64,000 bases of DNA, from the NCBI GenBank assembly GCA_900498245.1, contig LS998015.1, positions 646,063 through 710,062 on the forward strand, read 5' to 3'. Shown one piece after another: positions 1 through 54,825 of the stretch. Source of the DNA: Candidatus Zixiibacteriota bacterium (GTDB taxonomy: Bacteria > Zixibacteria > MSB-5A5 > GN15 > PGXB01). The stretch's first letter is position 1. The number at the start of each line of letters is the position of its first letter. A program made the translations under genes and the position numbers. The notes beneath the pieces are model-generated. The model was not told the origin of the DNA. It worked only from the letters and a program-made list of their open reading frames with translations, and did not search any database.

Positions 1-122
1 GCACCCCCAAACCCGAAGAGCCGCACCGCCCGTCCCGAAGTTTGGGGGTGGCACCCGTAGGGGCACCCCCAAACCCGAAGAGCCGCACCGCCCGTCCCGA
101 AGTTTGGGGGTGGCACCCGTAG
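1..122. repeat. Two tandem copies of palindrome family A
   Basis: Two near-identical 60-bp units lie at 1-60 and 63-122 (period 62). Each has perfect 11-bp inverted arms: CACCCCCAAAC at 2-12 and 64-74, and GTTTGGGGGTG at 40-50 and 102-112. The loop is about 27 nt and rich in CCG. The same module recurs at about 13.72 kb, 16.90 kb and three times at 51.59-51.91 kb, so it is a dispersed family. No coding potential is evident. The left window edge cuts the array, so more copies may lie outside. Confidence 0.85.
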
Positions 123-129
123 AAGAAAA

Positions 130-213
130 GATGTCGAAACCGCAAGGGTTTCGACCTACAAATTAAGGGATGTTAAAATGAAAGATGTCGGAACCGCGGG
201 GGTTCCGACCTAC
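130..213. repeat. Two REP-like hairpins, family B
   Basis: Two short palindromes begin GATGTCG and end with CTAC. The first has arms GTCGAAACC (133-141) and GGTTTCGAC (147-155) followed by CTAC at 156-159. The second has arms GTCGGAACC (187-195) and GGTTCCGAC (201-209) followed by CTAC at 210-213. The two differ by an A-T to G-C exchange on both sides of the stem, so pairing is kept. On the opposite strand each hairpin has GTAG at its foot, the hallmark of REP elements. Confidence 0.8.
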
Positions 214-13328: not shown

Positions 13329-13355
13329 GGGGGGGAATAGGGCAAGCGAAGGATT

Positions 13356-14028
13356 CGGTCGGGAAAGGATTCCCGACGGCGCGAAATAGGCGGACGGGCC
13401 GACGAAGCGTCTGCCGCGCACGGAGGCGACGGGAAACGAAGAGGGCAGGCGCAAGACCTGCCCCTACGAGGGAGGGATGTCGGGTTTCTCATCCGGCGGG
13501 GCCGGATTCGGAACCCGACCTACCAATAATGGAGATTCCGTCGGGAAAAGGCTCCCGACGGCGCGAAATAGGCCGCGGGGTCACACCACGGACGGGAGCC
13601 CTCGGCAAGACCCCGCGCAACATTTGAAACCGGCCTACCGAATAAGGAGAAAATGTCAAGACCCCCCAGCCGCACCGCACCGGTCCCCCAAGGGGTCATT
13701 GACCTACAAGAGGCATGGAGCACCCCCAAACCCCGAAGAGCCACACATCCCGTCCCGAGTTTGGGGGTGGCACCCGGGGAAGGAAGTCAGATAAAGATGT
13801 CGAAACCCCGTCGTTCGGCAGGAGCCGAACTCGGGGGATTTCGACCTACAGAATAAATTGGATTGCGGGTCAAGAGAGATGTCGGGTTTCTCATCCGGCG
13901 GGGCCGGATTCGGAACCCGAACTACGAATGAGGGAGTTTCCGTCGGGAAGGGATTCTCGAGGGCGCAAAAAGGCCGCGGGGTCACACCTCGGACAGGAGC
14001 CCTCGGCAAGACCCCGAGGAACATTTGA
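13356..14028. repeat. Mosaic block of palindromic repeats (block 1)
   Basis: The 756 bp between the FG-GAP gene and the cupin gene are almost filled by palindromic modules. In order: family C (GTCGGGAA 13358-13365 / TTCCCGAC 13370-13377, then GGCGC); family D (GGGCAGG 13443-13449 / CCTGCCC 13457-13463, then CTAC); family B (13476-13523); family C (about 13537-13567); family E (CGCGGGGTC...GACCCCGCG, about 13574-13618); family F ending in CTAC (about 13654-13706); family A (arms 13721-13731 / 13759-13769); family B (13796-13849); family B (about 13887-13933); a decayed C and a second E (to about 14020). No real gene is seen. Confidence 0.82.
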
Positions 14029-15877: not shown

Positions 15878-16630
15878 ATGCGGTGTACTCACAGAGGGTC
15901 AACTCTGACATTCTGGATTTTTCTACTCCTGATTGTCTTCGCAATGTCGGGAGTGCAGGCGCAGGACAGTAGTAAGGTGGCTAAGAATTATGCGAATGGG
16001 CTTCACAAGGGGGCCTGGGCGCTTCAATTTGCGATTATCAATGATTTTCAATTGAGAGATTTTCAAGGGGGAACAATAAGTATTAAAAGGCAGTGTTCGG
16101 AATCGCGGGCGATACGGTTGGGGTTGACTCTGAATGAATCATCGTCGCAATCTCACTCAGGGACGGCAAATTTCGAAGAGTCATATAAACTGGGAGAGAA
16201 TTTTATTGATCAAAACTATGATGGGCAGGCCGTCTCTCTGTATCTGCAATATATTCTGTATCCATCGACCGGGAGCAATATTCATCCCTATTGGGGTCTG
16301 GGTCCGCATCTGGGGTATTCCCGGGACAAGAGGGTGGCGCATAGCCGTACAATCGCGAGTTACGATCCGATTGAACGGGAGACGATAAGCGACAATGTGG
16401 TGCAAACTTGGACAGCGGGGCTATCGACGGTGATGGGAGTGGAGTGGTTTGCGGGGAAAAATGTCAGTCTGTTGGCCGAATATGGAATATTGGCGGATTA
16501 TAACTGGAATCACCGCACGATGAGTGAAATTTATTATCCGGGAGCCCAACAGAGAATCACGGAAGGCAAGGGTCATTCATTTTCGTTCAGCGGGACGGCG
16601 GTGAAGTTCGGGCTTTCGGCGTATTTTTAA
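15878..16630 (+). CDS. Outer-membrane beta-barrel-type protein of unknown function
   Basis: A 250-residue exported protein. A signal peptide spans about 1-28 (ending GVQAQ). The rest alternates short hydrophobic/aromatic strands with polar turns, for example VSLYLQYILYP and YWGLGPHLGYS, and ends in SAYF with a terminal Phe, as in outer-membrane barrels. No family could be named. AAAGGAG lies 9 nt before the ATG. About 154 bp without genes separate it from the M28 gene, and repeat block 2 follows at once, so it appears monocistronic. Confidence 0.62.
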   Translation: MRCTHRGSTLTFWIFLLLIVFAMSGVQAQDSSKVAKNYANGLHKGAWALQFAIINDFQLRDFQGGTISIKRQCSESRAIRLGLTLNESSSQSHSGTANFEESYKLGENFIDQNYDGQAVSLYLQYILYPSTGSNIHPYWGLGPHLGYSRDKRVAHSRTIASYDPIERETISDNVVQTWTAGLSTVMGVEWFAGKNVSLLAEYGILADYNWNHRTMSEIYYPGAQQRITEGKGHSFSFSGTAVKFGLSAYF

Positions 16631-16639
16631 GAAGAAGGT

Positions 16640-17228
16640 GTCGAAGTCGCGTTGTTCGGCGGGGCCGGATTCGAGACCGGACCTACGGGGGTATGAGCGA
16701 TAGGTTGGGGAAAAGTGGGCAGGCGCAAGACCTGCCCCTACAAGAAAAAGATGTCGGGTTTCTTATCCGGCGGGGCTGGATTCGAGACCCGACCTACGAA
16801 TGAGGGAGTTTCCGTCAGGAGAGACTCCTGACGGCGCGGAATAAGCGGCCGGGCCGGGCAGCGCAAACAACGGGCATATAAGATTTATGTTGCACACGAT
16901 GCACCCCCAAACCCCGAAGAGCCACGCATCCCGTCCCGAGTTTGGGGGTGGCACCCGGGGAAGATAAAGATGTCGAAACCCCGTCGTTCGGCAGGAGCCG
17001 AACTCGGGGGCTTTCGACCTACAAGATCTCGGAACCCGACCTACGAGTGTCAGTCCATTATGGGGAATTCCGTCGGGAAAGGGTTCCCGGCGGGGCCGGA
17101 TTCAGGACCGGACCTACGGGGGTATGAGCGATAGGTTGGGGAAAAGTGGGCAGGCGCAAGACCTGCCCCTACAAGAAAAAGATGTCGGGTTTCTCATCCG
17201 GCGGGGCCGGATTCGAGACCCGACCTAC
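16640..17228. repeat. Mosaic block of palindromic repeats (block 2) with a 141-bp duplication
   Basis: This 590-bp stretch is built from the same modules as block 1. A 141-bp segment at 16657-16797 is repeated almost exactly at 17088-17228; each copy contains a family D hairpin (GGGCAGG/CCTGCCC then CTAC) and a family B hairpin ending CTAC. Between them lie family C (about 16815-16840), family A (arms 16902-16912 / 16940-16950), family B (16969-17022) and a half B element near 17024-17045. The A+B pair matches that of block 1 closely. Short open frames here are by-products of the repeats. Confidence 0.85.
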
Positions 17229-17231
17229 AAG

Positions 17232-17324
17232 ATGAAGGGGGGATTTTCAAAAATAAAGACTGCTTGCCTAAATATTTTTCTCGCCATATCTTTGGCCGTC
17301 ACGTGGGCCGGGCAAACGAAATAA
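17232..17324 (+). CDS. Possible 30-residue hydrophobic peptide upstream of the CorA-like gene
   Basis: An ATG-started frame encodes 30 residues with a basic start, a hydrophobic core (LNIFLAISLAVTWAG) and a short polar end, resembling a signal peptide or single membrane helix. It begins 4 nt after the last palindrome of block 2 and ends 12 nt before the CorA-like start. No clear ribosome site is visible. It could be a small membrane protein, a leader peptide, or the remnant of an exported protein truncated by repeat insertion. Confidence 0.25.
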   Translation: MKGGFSKIKTACLNIFLAISLAVTWAGQTK

Positions 17325-18493: not shown

Positions 18494-18529
18494 ATAACCA
18501 TTAAAGTGTATCATCCATGGAGGTTGGCA

Positions 18530-19333
18530 GTGAAGAGATTTGTACAGAGTTCGGTTGTACTGGTGGCGATTATACTATTGGCCGCCGTTTTTAATCCGTC
18601 ATCGGCGTGCGACGGGGCCAAAGGGGCGTCGGCGAGCAAGAGTTGCCCGGCGTACAAGGCCGACGGCGTAGTCAAGACGGCCAGTGCCACATCGACCGGA
18701 AGTTGTTCGGCGACAAAAGGTACCGCGGAGGTCAAGGCGGCTGACGCCACGACGGGCGGGTGTCCTTATATGCAGAAGGCGGCGGAAGTGAAGACCGCCA
18801 ATGCCGTTTCGGGCGGAAGTTGTTCCGGGTCCAAGGGGGAGGCCGAGGTCAAGACGGCCAATGCCATGTCGGGCGATTGCCCCATGTCAAAGGTGTCGGC
18901 CAAGACCGCCGGCGCCGGTTCGTGCGCCAGCAGTTGCGCGTCCAAGGGGATGACTCAGGCCAAAATGGCAAATGCCATGGGGGAATGCGATTATAAGGGG
19001 AATTGCGATTATATTACAATGAATATCAAGGGGATGACCTGCACCGGATGCGAGAATACGGTGACCGAGGCTCTCAAAGCCGACAAGGGTGTGATCAAAG
19101 TCGTATCGGTCGATTACAAAACCGGCAAGGCGGTGGTCTGCTATGATCCGTCGAAGGTCGAAAGCGCCAAATTGGCCTCTCTGGTGACGACATCCGGCTA
19201 TCAGGCCGAAGTTATGCCGGCCGTAGCGAAGACGACCGGGACAAAGACGATGAAAAAAGGCGGCACCTGTGACGTTCTGACGGGCAAATGCAGCGGCGGG
19301 ACGAAGACGGAGAGCGAGCCGACATCGCATTAA
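18530..19333 (+). CDS. Exported Cys-rich repeat protein with heavy-metal-associated (HMA) domain
   Basis: A 267-residue exported protein. The signal peptide is about residues 1-26. Residues 27-158 hold a degenerate repeat of about 25-30 residues with the core KGxAEVKTANAxSG flanked by Cys, in four to five copies, including CPY, CPM and SCASSC clusters. Residues 160-228 form an HMA domain with metal-binding Cys171 and Cys174 (GMTCTGC). A Cys-containing tail (CDVLTGKC) ends the protein. It is likely a periplasmic or surface binder of soft metals such as Cu or Hg; specificity is unknown. GTG at 18530 with GGAGG upstream fits better than the GTG at 18506. A terminator follows. Confidence 0.8.
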   Translation: MKRFVQSSVVLVAIILLAAVFNPSSACDGAKGASASKSCPAYKADGVVKTASATSTGSCSATKGTAEVKAADATTGGCPYMQKAAEVKTANAVSGGSCSGSKGEAEVKTANAMSGDCPMSKVSAKTAGAGSCASSCASKGMTQAKMANAMGECDYKGNCDYITMNIKGMTCTGCENTVTEALKADKGVIKVVSVDYKTGKAVVCYDPSKVESAKLASLVTTSGYQAEVMPAVAKTTGTKTMKKGGTCDVLTGKCSGGTKTESEPTSH

Positions 19334-51472: not shown

Positions 51473-51481
51473 AAGCAGAAA

Positions 51482-52020
51482 GATGTCGGGTTTCTCGCCA
51501 GTTCGCTACGCTCACGTCTCGAGCCCCAACCTACGACTACTATTGAACCAATAGGGACACGGCACGCCGTGCCACGACAAGAATGAATCACCCCCAAACC
51601 CCAAAAGCCCCTGTCCCCGTCCCGAAGTTTGGGGGTGGCACCCCCTTGGCATGGGACAAAGGAGAAGACCGTCAGGAGAGACTCCTGACGGCGCGATAAA
51701 AGCTGCATCTATAAGAATGAATCACCCCCAAGCCCCAAAAGCCCCTGTCCCCGTCCCGAAGTTTGGGGGTGGCACCCAGGGAATGGGACAAAGGAGAAGA
51801 CCGTCAGGAGAGACTCCTGACGGCGCGATAAAAGCTGCATCTATAAGAATGAATCACCCCCAAGCCCCAGAGAGCCCCTGCACCCGGCCCGAAGTTTGGG
51901 GGTGGCACCCAGGGCATGGGACAAAGGAGAAGACCGTCAGGAGAGATTCCTGACGGCGCATTGAAAGATGTCGAAACCCCGTCGTTCGGCCGGAGCCGAA
52001 CTCTGGGATTTCGATCTACG
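51482..52020. repeat. Mosaic block of palindromic repeats (block 3) with a tandem triplication
   Basis: A diverged family B element (51482-51535, ending CCTAC) and a short palindrome around GGCACGCCGTGCC are followed by three tandem composite units starting at 51581, 51715 and 51847 (periods 134 and 132). Each unit has a family A hairpin (CACCCCCAA...TTTGGGGGTG) and a family C hairpin (CCGTCAGGAG...CTCCTGACGG then CGCG in units 1 and 2). A family B hairpin (about 51967-52019) closes the block. The remaining 52021-52276 is gene-free; apart from A/T-rich stretches I see nothing in it. Confidence 0.85.
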
Positions 52021-54698: not shown

Positions 54699-54767
54699 AA
54701 GAATTAAGGAAGGGTCGATCGCAAGGTCGGCCCTTCGAGTTTGAGGCAGGTATAACATGGAAAAGTT

Positions 54768-54825
54768 GTCGAAACCGCAGGGGTTTTGACAAATAATCAA
54801 AGCGGCGGGTCTGAGGACCCGCCGA
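54768..54825. repeat. Decayed family B element and an adjacent GC-rich palindrome
   Basis: GTCGAAACC at 54768-54776 pairs with GGTTTTGAC (ending 54790); the CTAC tail is lost. Just after it, CGGCGGGTC (about 54803-54811) pairs with GACCCGCCG through a 4-nt loop. No T-run follows, so it is a weak terminator candidate at best. Confidence 0.55.

Follow-up and report, generated by a model that had tools for sequence, protein, structure and literature searches.

REP hairpins and their RAYT transposase genes in a Zixiibacteriota genome, with a candidate residue-to-base-pair map

REP/RAYT systems are widespread. To our knowledge, the way in which a RAYT selects its cognate REP has been examined in just a few pairs. 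In a 64,000-nucleotide stretch of DNA from a Candidatus Zixiibacteriota bacterium, hairpin repeats are found at positions 1-213 and in the intergenic spaces at 13.4-14.0, 16.6-17.3, 51.5-52.0 and 54.8 kb, and the question raised by this locus is what these repeats are and which enzyme acts on them. The stretch, hereafter the window, covers positions 646,063-710,062 of a single 3,508,505-base contig (complete genome, 3.5 Mb). An earlier note, made from the letters of the window, had interpreted the repeats as REP sequences recognised by RAYT transposases, and this interpretation is right in substance. In our reading, to which we assign a probability of about 0.92, the repeats are REPs, namely non-autonomous single-stranded DNA hairpins with a GTAG or GTGC-type foot, and HUH tyrosine transposases (RAYT/TnpAREP) recognise, cleave and rejoin them. 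This type of mobile DNA is already known; the present member is unusually rich and is a useful dataset.

On the minus strand, ten repeats of the window have GTAG and, directly after it, a stem of 7 bp or more. All 256 tetranucleotide feet were scored alike for hairpin rate, so the GTAG foot was recovered without being assumed: GTAG ranked first (10/129, 7.75%), the next foot reached 2.5%, and the mean was 0.52%. The sequence GTAGGTCG occurred eight times, with 1.1 expected. The earlier note had located CTAC immediately after the stem at 156-159, 210-213, 13464-13467 and 17225-17228, and all four coordinates are exact. The elements at 51.5 and 54.8 kb, which it had also listed, are present, but the copies at 51.5, 52.0 and 54.8 kb have decayed, the last of them lacking CTAC. 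An Rfam scan of the window found a tRNA alone. The features are collected in the table below.

Table. Hairpin repeats of the window; REPs are written from their GTAG foot.
Feature	Position	Strand	Remark
REP-like repeat CACCCCCAAAC..GTTTGGGGGTG of 62 bp in two tandem copies, GGGTGC foot, family E	1..118	-	type flanking RAYT R7
Short REP GTAG-GTCGAAACC-CTTGC-GGTTTCGAC, family A	133..159	-	stem type of RAYT R2
Short REP GTAG-GTCGGAACC-CCCGC-GGTTCCGAC, compensated family A variant	187..213	-	five dispersed genome copies
REP GTAG-GGGCAGG..CCTGCCC, family F	13443..13467	-	
Long REP GTAG-GTCGGGT..ACCCGAC, family B	13479..13523	-	type flanking RAYT R10
Family E repeat	13720..13775	-	
Long family A REP with bulged T, GTAG-GTCGAAA-T-CCCC..GGGG-TTTCGAC	13799..13849	-	same as at RAYT R2
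Family F REP	16717..16741	-	
Family B REP	16753..16797	-	
Perfect CCGTCAGGAG..CTCCTGACGG palindrome with GCGC after it, family G	16812..16834	.	
Family E repeat	16901..16956	-	
Long family A REP	16972..17022	-	
Family F REP	17148..17172	-	
Family B REP	17184..17228	-	end of cluster (about 16,630-17,250)
Decayed family B REP	51479..51536	-	stem broken, CTAC kept
Tandem array of about three 132-bp units, each combining a family E repeat with a CCGTCAGGAG palindrome (family G)	51588..51956	-	
Decayed long family A REP	51966..52020	-	CGATCTAC end
Decayed short family A hairpin	54767..54790	-	without CTAC

The genome-wide survey relied on pattern searches and pair counting in place of a covariance model. 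The hairpin pattern GTAGGTCG..CGAC gave 76 matches (some nested), compared with 7 for the reversed-pattern control, and the corresponding numbers were 27 and 0 for the family E pattern, 46 and 0 for the GGCAGA pattern, and 27 and 10 for GTAGGTCA..TGAC. The elements have the form of REPs in the window and in the genome-wide patterns, being palindromes of 20-50 nt with an unpaired GTAG ahead, extragenic and present in many copies per genome. Conservation of CTAC/GTAG, on which the earlier note had made its reading depend, was observed both genome-wide in the pattern search and at RAYT loci across the phylum.

Several minor features accompany these repeats. The base before the window start (G000:C1:646062) is a single N inside the tandem family E array, and given this adjoining N the copy number of the array at the window start may be an assembly artefact. 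The 132-bp unit at 51588-51956 is a composite of families E and G that was duplicated as a block. Compensated variation was also seen among the CCGTCRGGRR palindromes with GCGC (16812-16834, 51669-51956 and 13352-13580), in which CCGTCGGGAA/TTCCCGACGG corresponds to CCGTCAGGAG/CTCCTGACGG; this family G is probably linked to RAYT R8. The ORF at 18506-19333 contains degenerate coding repeats of about 60 nt in tandem at 18641-18882.

The decisive check on the earlier reading was the presence of a RAYT gene in the genome, and a profile search of the complete genome detected 11 Y1 transposase genes, all above the PF01797 cut-off. Six of these RAYTs were tested further, and all exceeded both the Pfam cut-off and that of the NCBIfam model for REP-associated tyrosine transposases (NF047646). 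By sequence, the R2 protein matched 4er8, the co-crystal of the E. coli RAYT with its REP (E 2.7e-22), and its predicted model (pLDDT 85) had the same entry as its best structural match (TM 0.86), above the ISDra2 and IS608 transposases. Across the R2/R10-type set, the HUH motif and catalytic tyrosine are present (H58, H60, Y118 and N122 conserved), as are the GTAG-contact residues W97, Q98 and R107 together with D103. A C-terminal GE tail was found in about 102 of 130 loci, and in most of the others this region lies outside the match. In these features the proteins agree with group 2 RAYTs (E. coli type), which are marked by a Gly-Glu tail at the C terminus and by GTAG-contacting W, Q, E or D, and R.

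The HUH/Y1 fold is common to RAYTs and IS200/IS605 transposases, and the hairpins might accordingly derive from MITEs or from conventional IS200/IS605 elements, as their ends or as what is left of them. The same six proteins scored at most 31 bits against the IS200 model, far below its cut-off of 55, while the REP_Tyr_transpos model was exceeded (NCBIfam); the closest structure is TnpAREP 4er8 itself; and the flanking hairpins are inverted, whereas IS200/IS605 ends lie on one strand. An origin from such elements is hardly credible on these grounds, and the assignment to RAYTs and their REPs is retained.

Most of the 11 RAYTs are flanked on one or both sides by their own hairpin type, and at least three of these types are palindromes of the window, as the earlier note had anticipated. 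R2 (3,120,517-3,121,017) has the bulged long hairpin of family A on both sides, R10 (1,182,400-1,182,906; 50% identical to R2 in protein) has that of family B on both sides, and R7 (3,077,677-3,078,288) is bordered on both sides by the family E hairpin, GGGTGC-CACCCCCAAAC..GTTTGGGGGTG, of the tandem repeat at 1-118. The window therefore contains heterotypic clusters of families cognate to at least three RAYTs. R1, R3, R5, R6 and R9 (42-54% identical) are accompanied by GTGCGC-GGCAG hairpins distinguished by their upper half; the variants of R1, R3, R5 and R6 each recur among the genome-wide matches, and 25 of the 46 genome copies of the GGCAGA pattern are of the R5 variant, TGTCCACA. R5 lies 1.2 kb ahead of the window, and its family differs from the hairpins at 1-213. 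R4, R8 and R11 have other hairpin types. Among the 11 genes, R2, R10, R7, R3 and R6 lie between a pair of inverted cognate REPs. A clear hairpin is seen on just one side of R4, and R9 has an imperfect one on one side. In this genome, no RAYT was found flanked by the family F hairpin, nor was a cognate RAYT found for the decayed window copies. A family F copy is situated at the orthologous pyrG spacer of the congener G001.

The association was then followed across the phylum, where NF047646 matches were present in 119 of 132 genomes with up to 15 per genome, indicating that transposases of a domesticated type are multiplying. We examined 130 unique R2/R10-type RAYT loci in relatives. A GTAG hairpin occurred within 200 nt of the gene at 114 loci, 78 of which had inverted hairpins on both sides. 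The 9-nt stems were identical left and right at 67 of these 78 loci, with a mean difference of 0.24 compared with 3.37 after shuffling, and about 40 different stems were distinguished. Short REPs were present at 53 of the 114 loci and long ones only at 61. The tree implies no fewer than 17 switches between the two, and in five R2-type REPtrons a long REP is combined with a short one. Two RAYT stem types are represented by GTCGAAACC and GGCAGAACC.

Paired stem changes had been taken in the earlier note as a sign that the hairpin itself is selected or required for movement. In the window, GTCGGAACC is indeed a compensated variant of GTCGAAACC, but GTCGAAACC and GTCGGGTT belong to two families with two transposases, so the window example mainly compares two REP families. 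The argument is strong at the level of the RAYT clade. In 35 distinct short REPs (GTAG, 9-bp stem, 5-nt loop; the alignment omits two CCGGGGTCC-type sequences of a single locus), 99.7% of cells pair and double changes occur at seven of nine pairs; the covariation score was 0.656, compared with 0.220 for shuffled and at most 0.18 for slid alignments. Within family B (GTCGGGT) of this genome, the lower stem is nearly invariant (97% paired, one double change). Preservation of the hairpin by compensatory change is therefore evident across RAYT loci and weak within family B of this genome. Pairs 1 (G-C) and 3 (C-G) are invariant among the 35 short REPs. TnpAREP contacts a base called G32 in the E. 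coli REP (PMC8266576), and pair 3 would include this base according to our own reading of the published REP sequence.

The dispersal of the REPs was analysed in 424 kb of sampled genome. When coding regions were called by codon-usage scoring, one of 157 REPs fell in coding sequence compared with 122 expected, and counting any ORF longer than 90 aa instead places 67 of the 157 inside ORFs. The claim that the hairpins are confined to intergenic spaces thus holds for the window, on its ORF map, and for the sampled genome. REP clusters were enriched between convergent genes (20/59, compared with 46/269 of all spaces). Away from RAYT genes, 57 of 70 neighbouring REP pairs joined different families, and 60 of 70 had the same orientation, the symmetric family G being excluded from the orientation count for its arbitrary strand; with the other ten pairs opposite, the neighbours do not mainly form the alternating inverted pairs of BIMEs/REPINs.

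The intergenic location, the enrichment between convergent genes and a hairpin size that could suit transcript termination or stabilisation would all fit host regulatory elements, namely terminators or stabilisers of mRNA ends on which selection acts through the RNA and for which no transposase is required. Such elements would not explain stems equal to those beside specific transposase genes or an unpaired, invariant GTAG foot; the hairpins are also found in both orientations, and the element has no T-run. We regard a purely regulatory origin as very improbable, and the hairpins may have a secondary host role in addition to being REPs handled by RAYTs.

Comparison with the congener G001 shows REPs that are present in one genome and absent from the other. 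The flanks of the 16.63-17.25 kb cluster align to that genome at 71% and 84%, and the orthologous spacer comprises 623 REP-filled nucleotides in the present genome and 154 nt in G001, where the cluster is absent. The content of the space left of pyrG also differs between the two genomes. These spacer differences indicate that REP copies come or go at the species scale; a comparison of two genomes is not proof of either gain or loss. As a separate observation, REP orientation correlates with the local GC skew, the strand with GTAG being in most cases the C-rich one (Fisher p = 0.0017, 59 clusters; gene direction not separated). A simple replichore model for this orientation (dnaA at 236.6 kb, sampled GC skew) did not fit, because the orientation has a second flip near 2.7 Mb.

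Under the REP/RAYT reading, each RAYT would move its cognate REP as folded single-stranded DNA. By analogy with the work on TnpAREP, the protein most likely binds the folded GTAG strand. Cleavage would be strand-specific and take place near the foot, at a CT close to the REP, through Tyr118, with the HUH histidines presumably holding the metal, and the cut strand would be re-joined elsewhere. The sequences themselves show the anatomy, the pairing and the dispersal, and from them and the work on TnpAREP we infer the chemistry and the choice of strand and target.

The system can be placed among known ones. It resembles the E. coli REPtron (4er8; group 2, subclass 2.2) in its HUH and tyrosine protein of about 166 aa, Gly-Glu tail, GTAG foot and flanking REPs, and in the bulge or internal loop of the long family A and B REPs. 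It differs in having eleven genes instead of one, about 30% protein identity and GTCGAAA/GTCGGGT stems, and many relatives here use short perfect hairpins. The group 3 (subclass 2.5) REPtrons of Stenotrophomonas and Marinomonas likewise have GTAG, a 9-bp perfect stem and a 5-nt loop, often CCTGC or CTTGC (PMC8266576). The GE tail has been ascribed to group 2 and not to group 3 RAYTs (PMC8266576), whereas the short REPs here accompany RAYTs with a group-2-type C-terminal GE tail; long bulged REPs, a group 2 trait, are found at R2 and R10 themselves, yet a short REP occurs at 53 of the 114 loci. As in the multi-RAYT genomes of Stenotrophomonas and Pseudomonas (PMC2817692, PMC3116915), several RAYTs each have their own REP and the two co-diverge; unlike the hybrid BIMEs/REPINs described there, the clusters are mostly of mixed families in one orientation and not mainly inverted pairs. 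The GTAG-tagged REP superfamily and TIR-associated RAYTs (PMC3733652) share the GTAG tag, the repeat-specific REPtrons and the occurrence of some RAYTs with other terminal repeats. We found no mention of Zixiibacteriota in the RAYT/REP literature examined.

A single phylum offers more than 100 natural RAYT-REP pairs, in which a conserved protein is combined with about 40 stems, and for this reason recognition becomes directly testable at named residues and base pairs. At the RAYT loci, the columns of the protein alignment shared mutual information with the stem positions in a structured way (R2 numbering). Pair 2 couples with residues 5 (Arg), 99 and 95; pair 4 with residue 2; pair 5 with residues 4, 99 and 18; pair 6 with residues 75 and 18; pair 7 with residue 83; pair 8 with residues 75 and 79; and pair 9 with residue 86. 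At pair 2, Arg5 accompanies T in 79 of 84 cases and Leu, Lys or Ile5 accompanies G in 25 of 28; at pair 4, the base is G in 27 of 28 cases with Thr2 and A in 44 of 49 cases with Ser2. In the predicted R2 model, residues 75, 79, 83 and 86 are located on helix 70-89 with helical spacing, residue 18 in strand 14-20 and residue 99 in strand 97-105. Residue 79 aligns with E. coli K82 in an alignment counted by hand, and K82 contacts the bulge in 4er8 (PMC8266576). The DNA contacts of the E. coli protein are in beta1, around beta4 and in alpha3, and the coupled residues map to the REP-touching elements of that protein, namely beta1, beta4, helix alpha3 and the N-terminal stretch (PMC8266576).

What goes beyond the known is a candidate residue-to-base-pair map, for which we see roughly even odds. 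Judging from the covariation, residues 2-5 and 99, with 18, would read the lower stem and specify pairs 2-5, and one face of alpha3 (75, 79, 83 and 86) would read the upper stem and specify pairs 6-9. We lean slightly towards such a modular and evolvable code, in which residue changes would retarget a RAYT to a new REP family; if true, it would account for the radiation of paralogous RAYT-REP pairs within single genomes.

For this map alone, stem type and RAYT residues may instead have been co-inherited through linkage and shared ancestry, with no recognition by those residues, a possibility that we take seriously while considering it somewhat doubtful. The REPs flank the gene and travel along with the RAYT, and the deep branches of the RAYT tree are weakly supported, which makes the number of independent switches uncertain and leaves too few pairs on well-supported branches for a sign test. 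A phylogenetic null was obtained by evolving each stem position along the 166-aa RAYT tree (trait simulation), and the couplings exceeded the simulations on both trees used. With the tree built without the tested columns, z was 13.0 for Arg5 and pair 2, 8.9 for residue 99 and pair 2, 9.2 for residue 4 and pair 5, 9.1 for residue 75 and pair 6, and 7.3 for residue 2 and pair 4; with the all-column tree, the values were 10.4, 7.4, 6.7, 5.2 and 3.1, respectively. Each variable stem position changed at least 12-28 times on the former tree and 10-27 times on the latter, which argues against co-inheritance, as does the position of the residues in the E. coli REP-touching elements. In a nested prediction that excluded training proteins at least 50% identical and chose three residues in training (effective n about 12), the chosen residues outperformed nearest-protein and majority-base prediction at pairs 2, 4, 5, 6, 7 and 8 (pair 6: 0.85, compared with 0.59 and 0.72); no predictive gain was obtained at pairs 3 and 9 in this out-of-clade test.

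Five paralogous RAYTs of one genome (L013, L009, L010, L012 and L015) differ in the residues past a conserved alpha3 Phe-Lys, and their REPs differ in the upper stem, thereby providing a within-genome test case for recognition.
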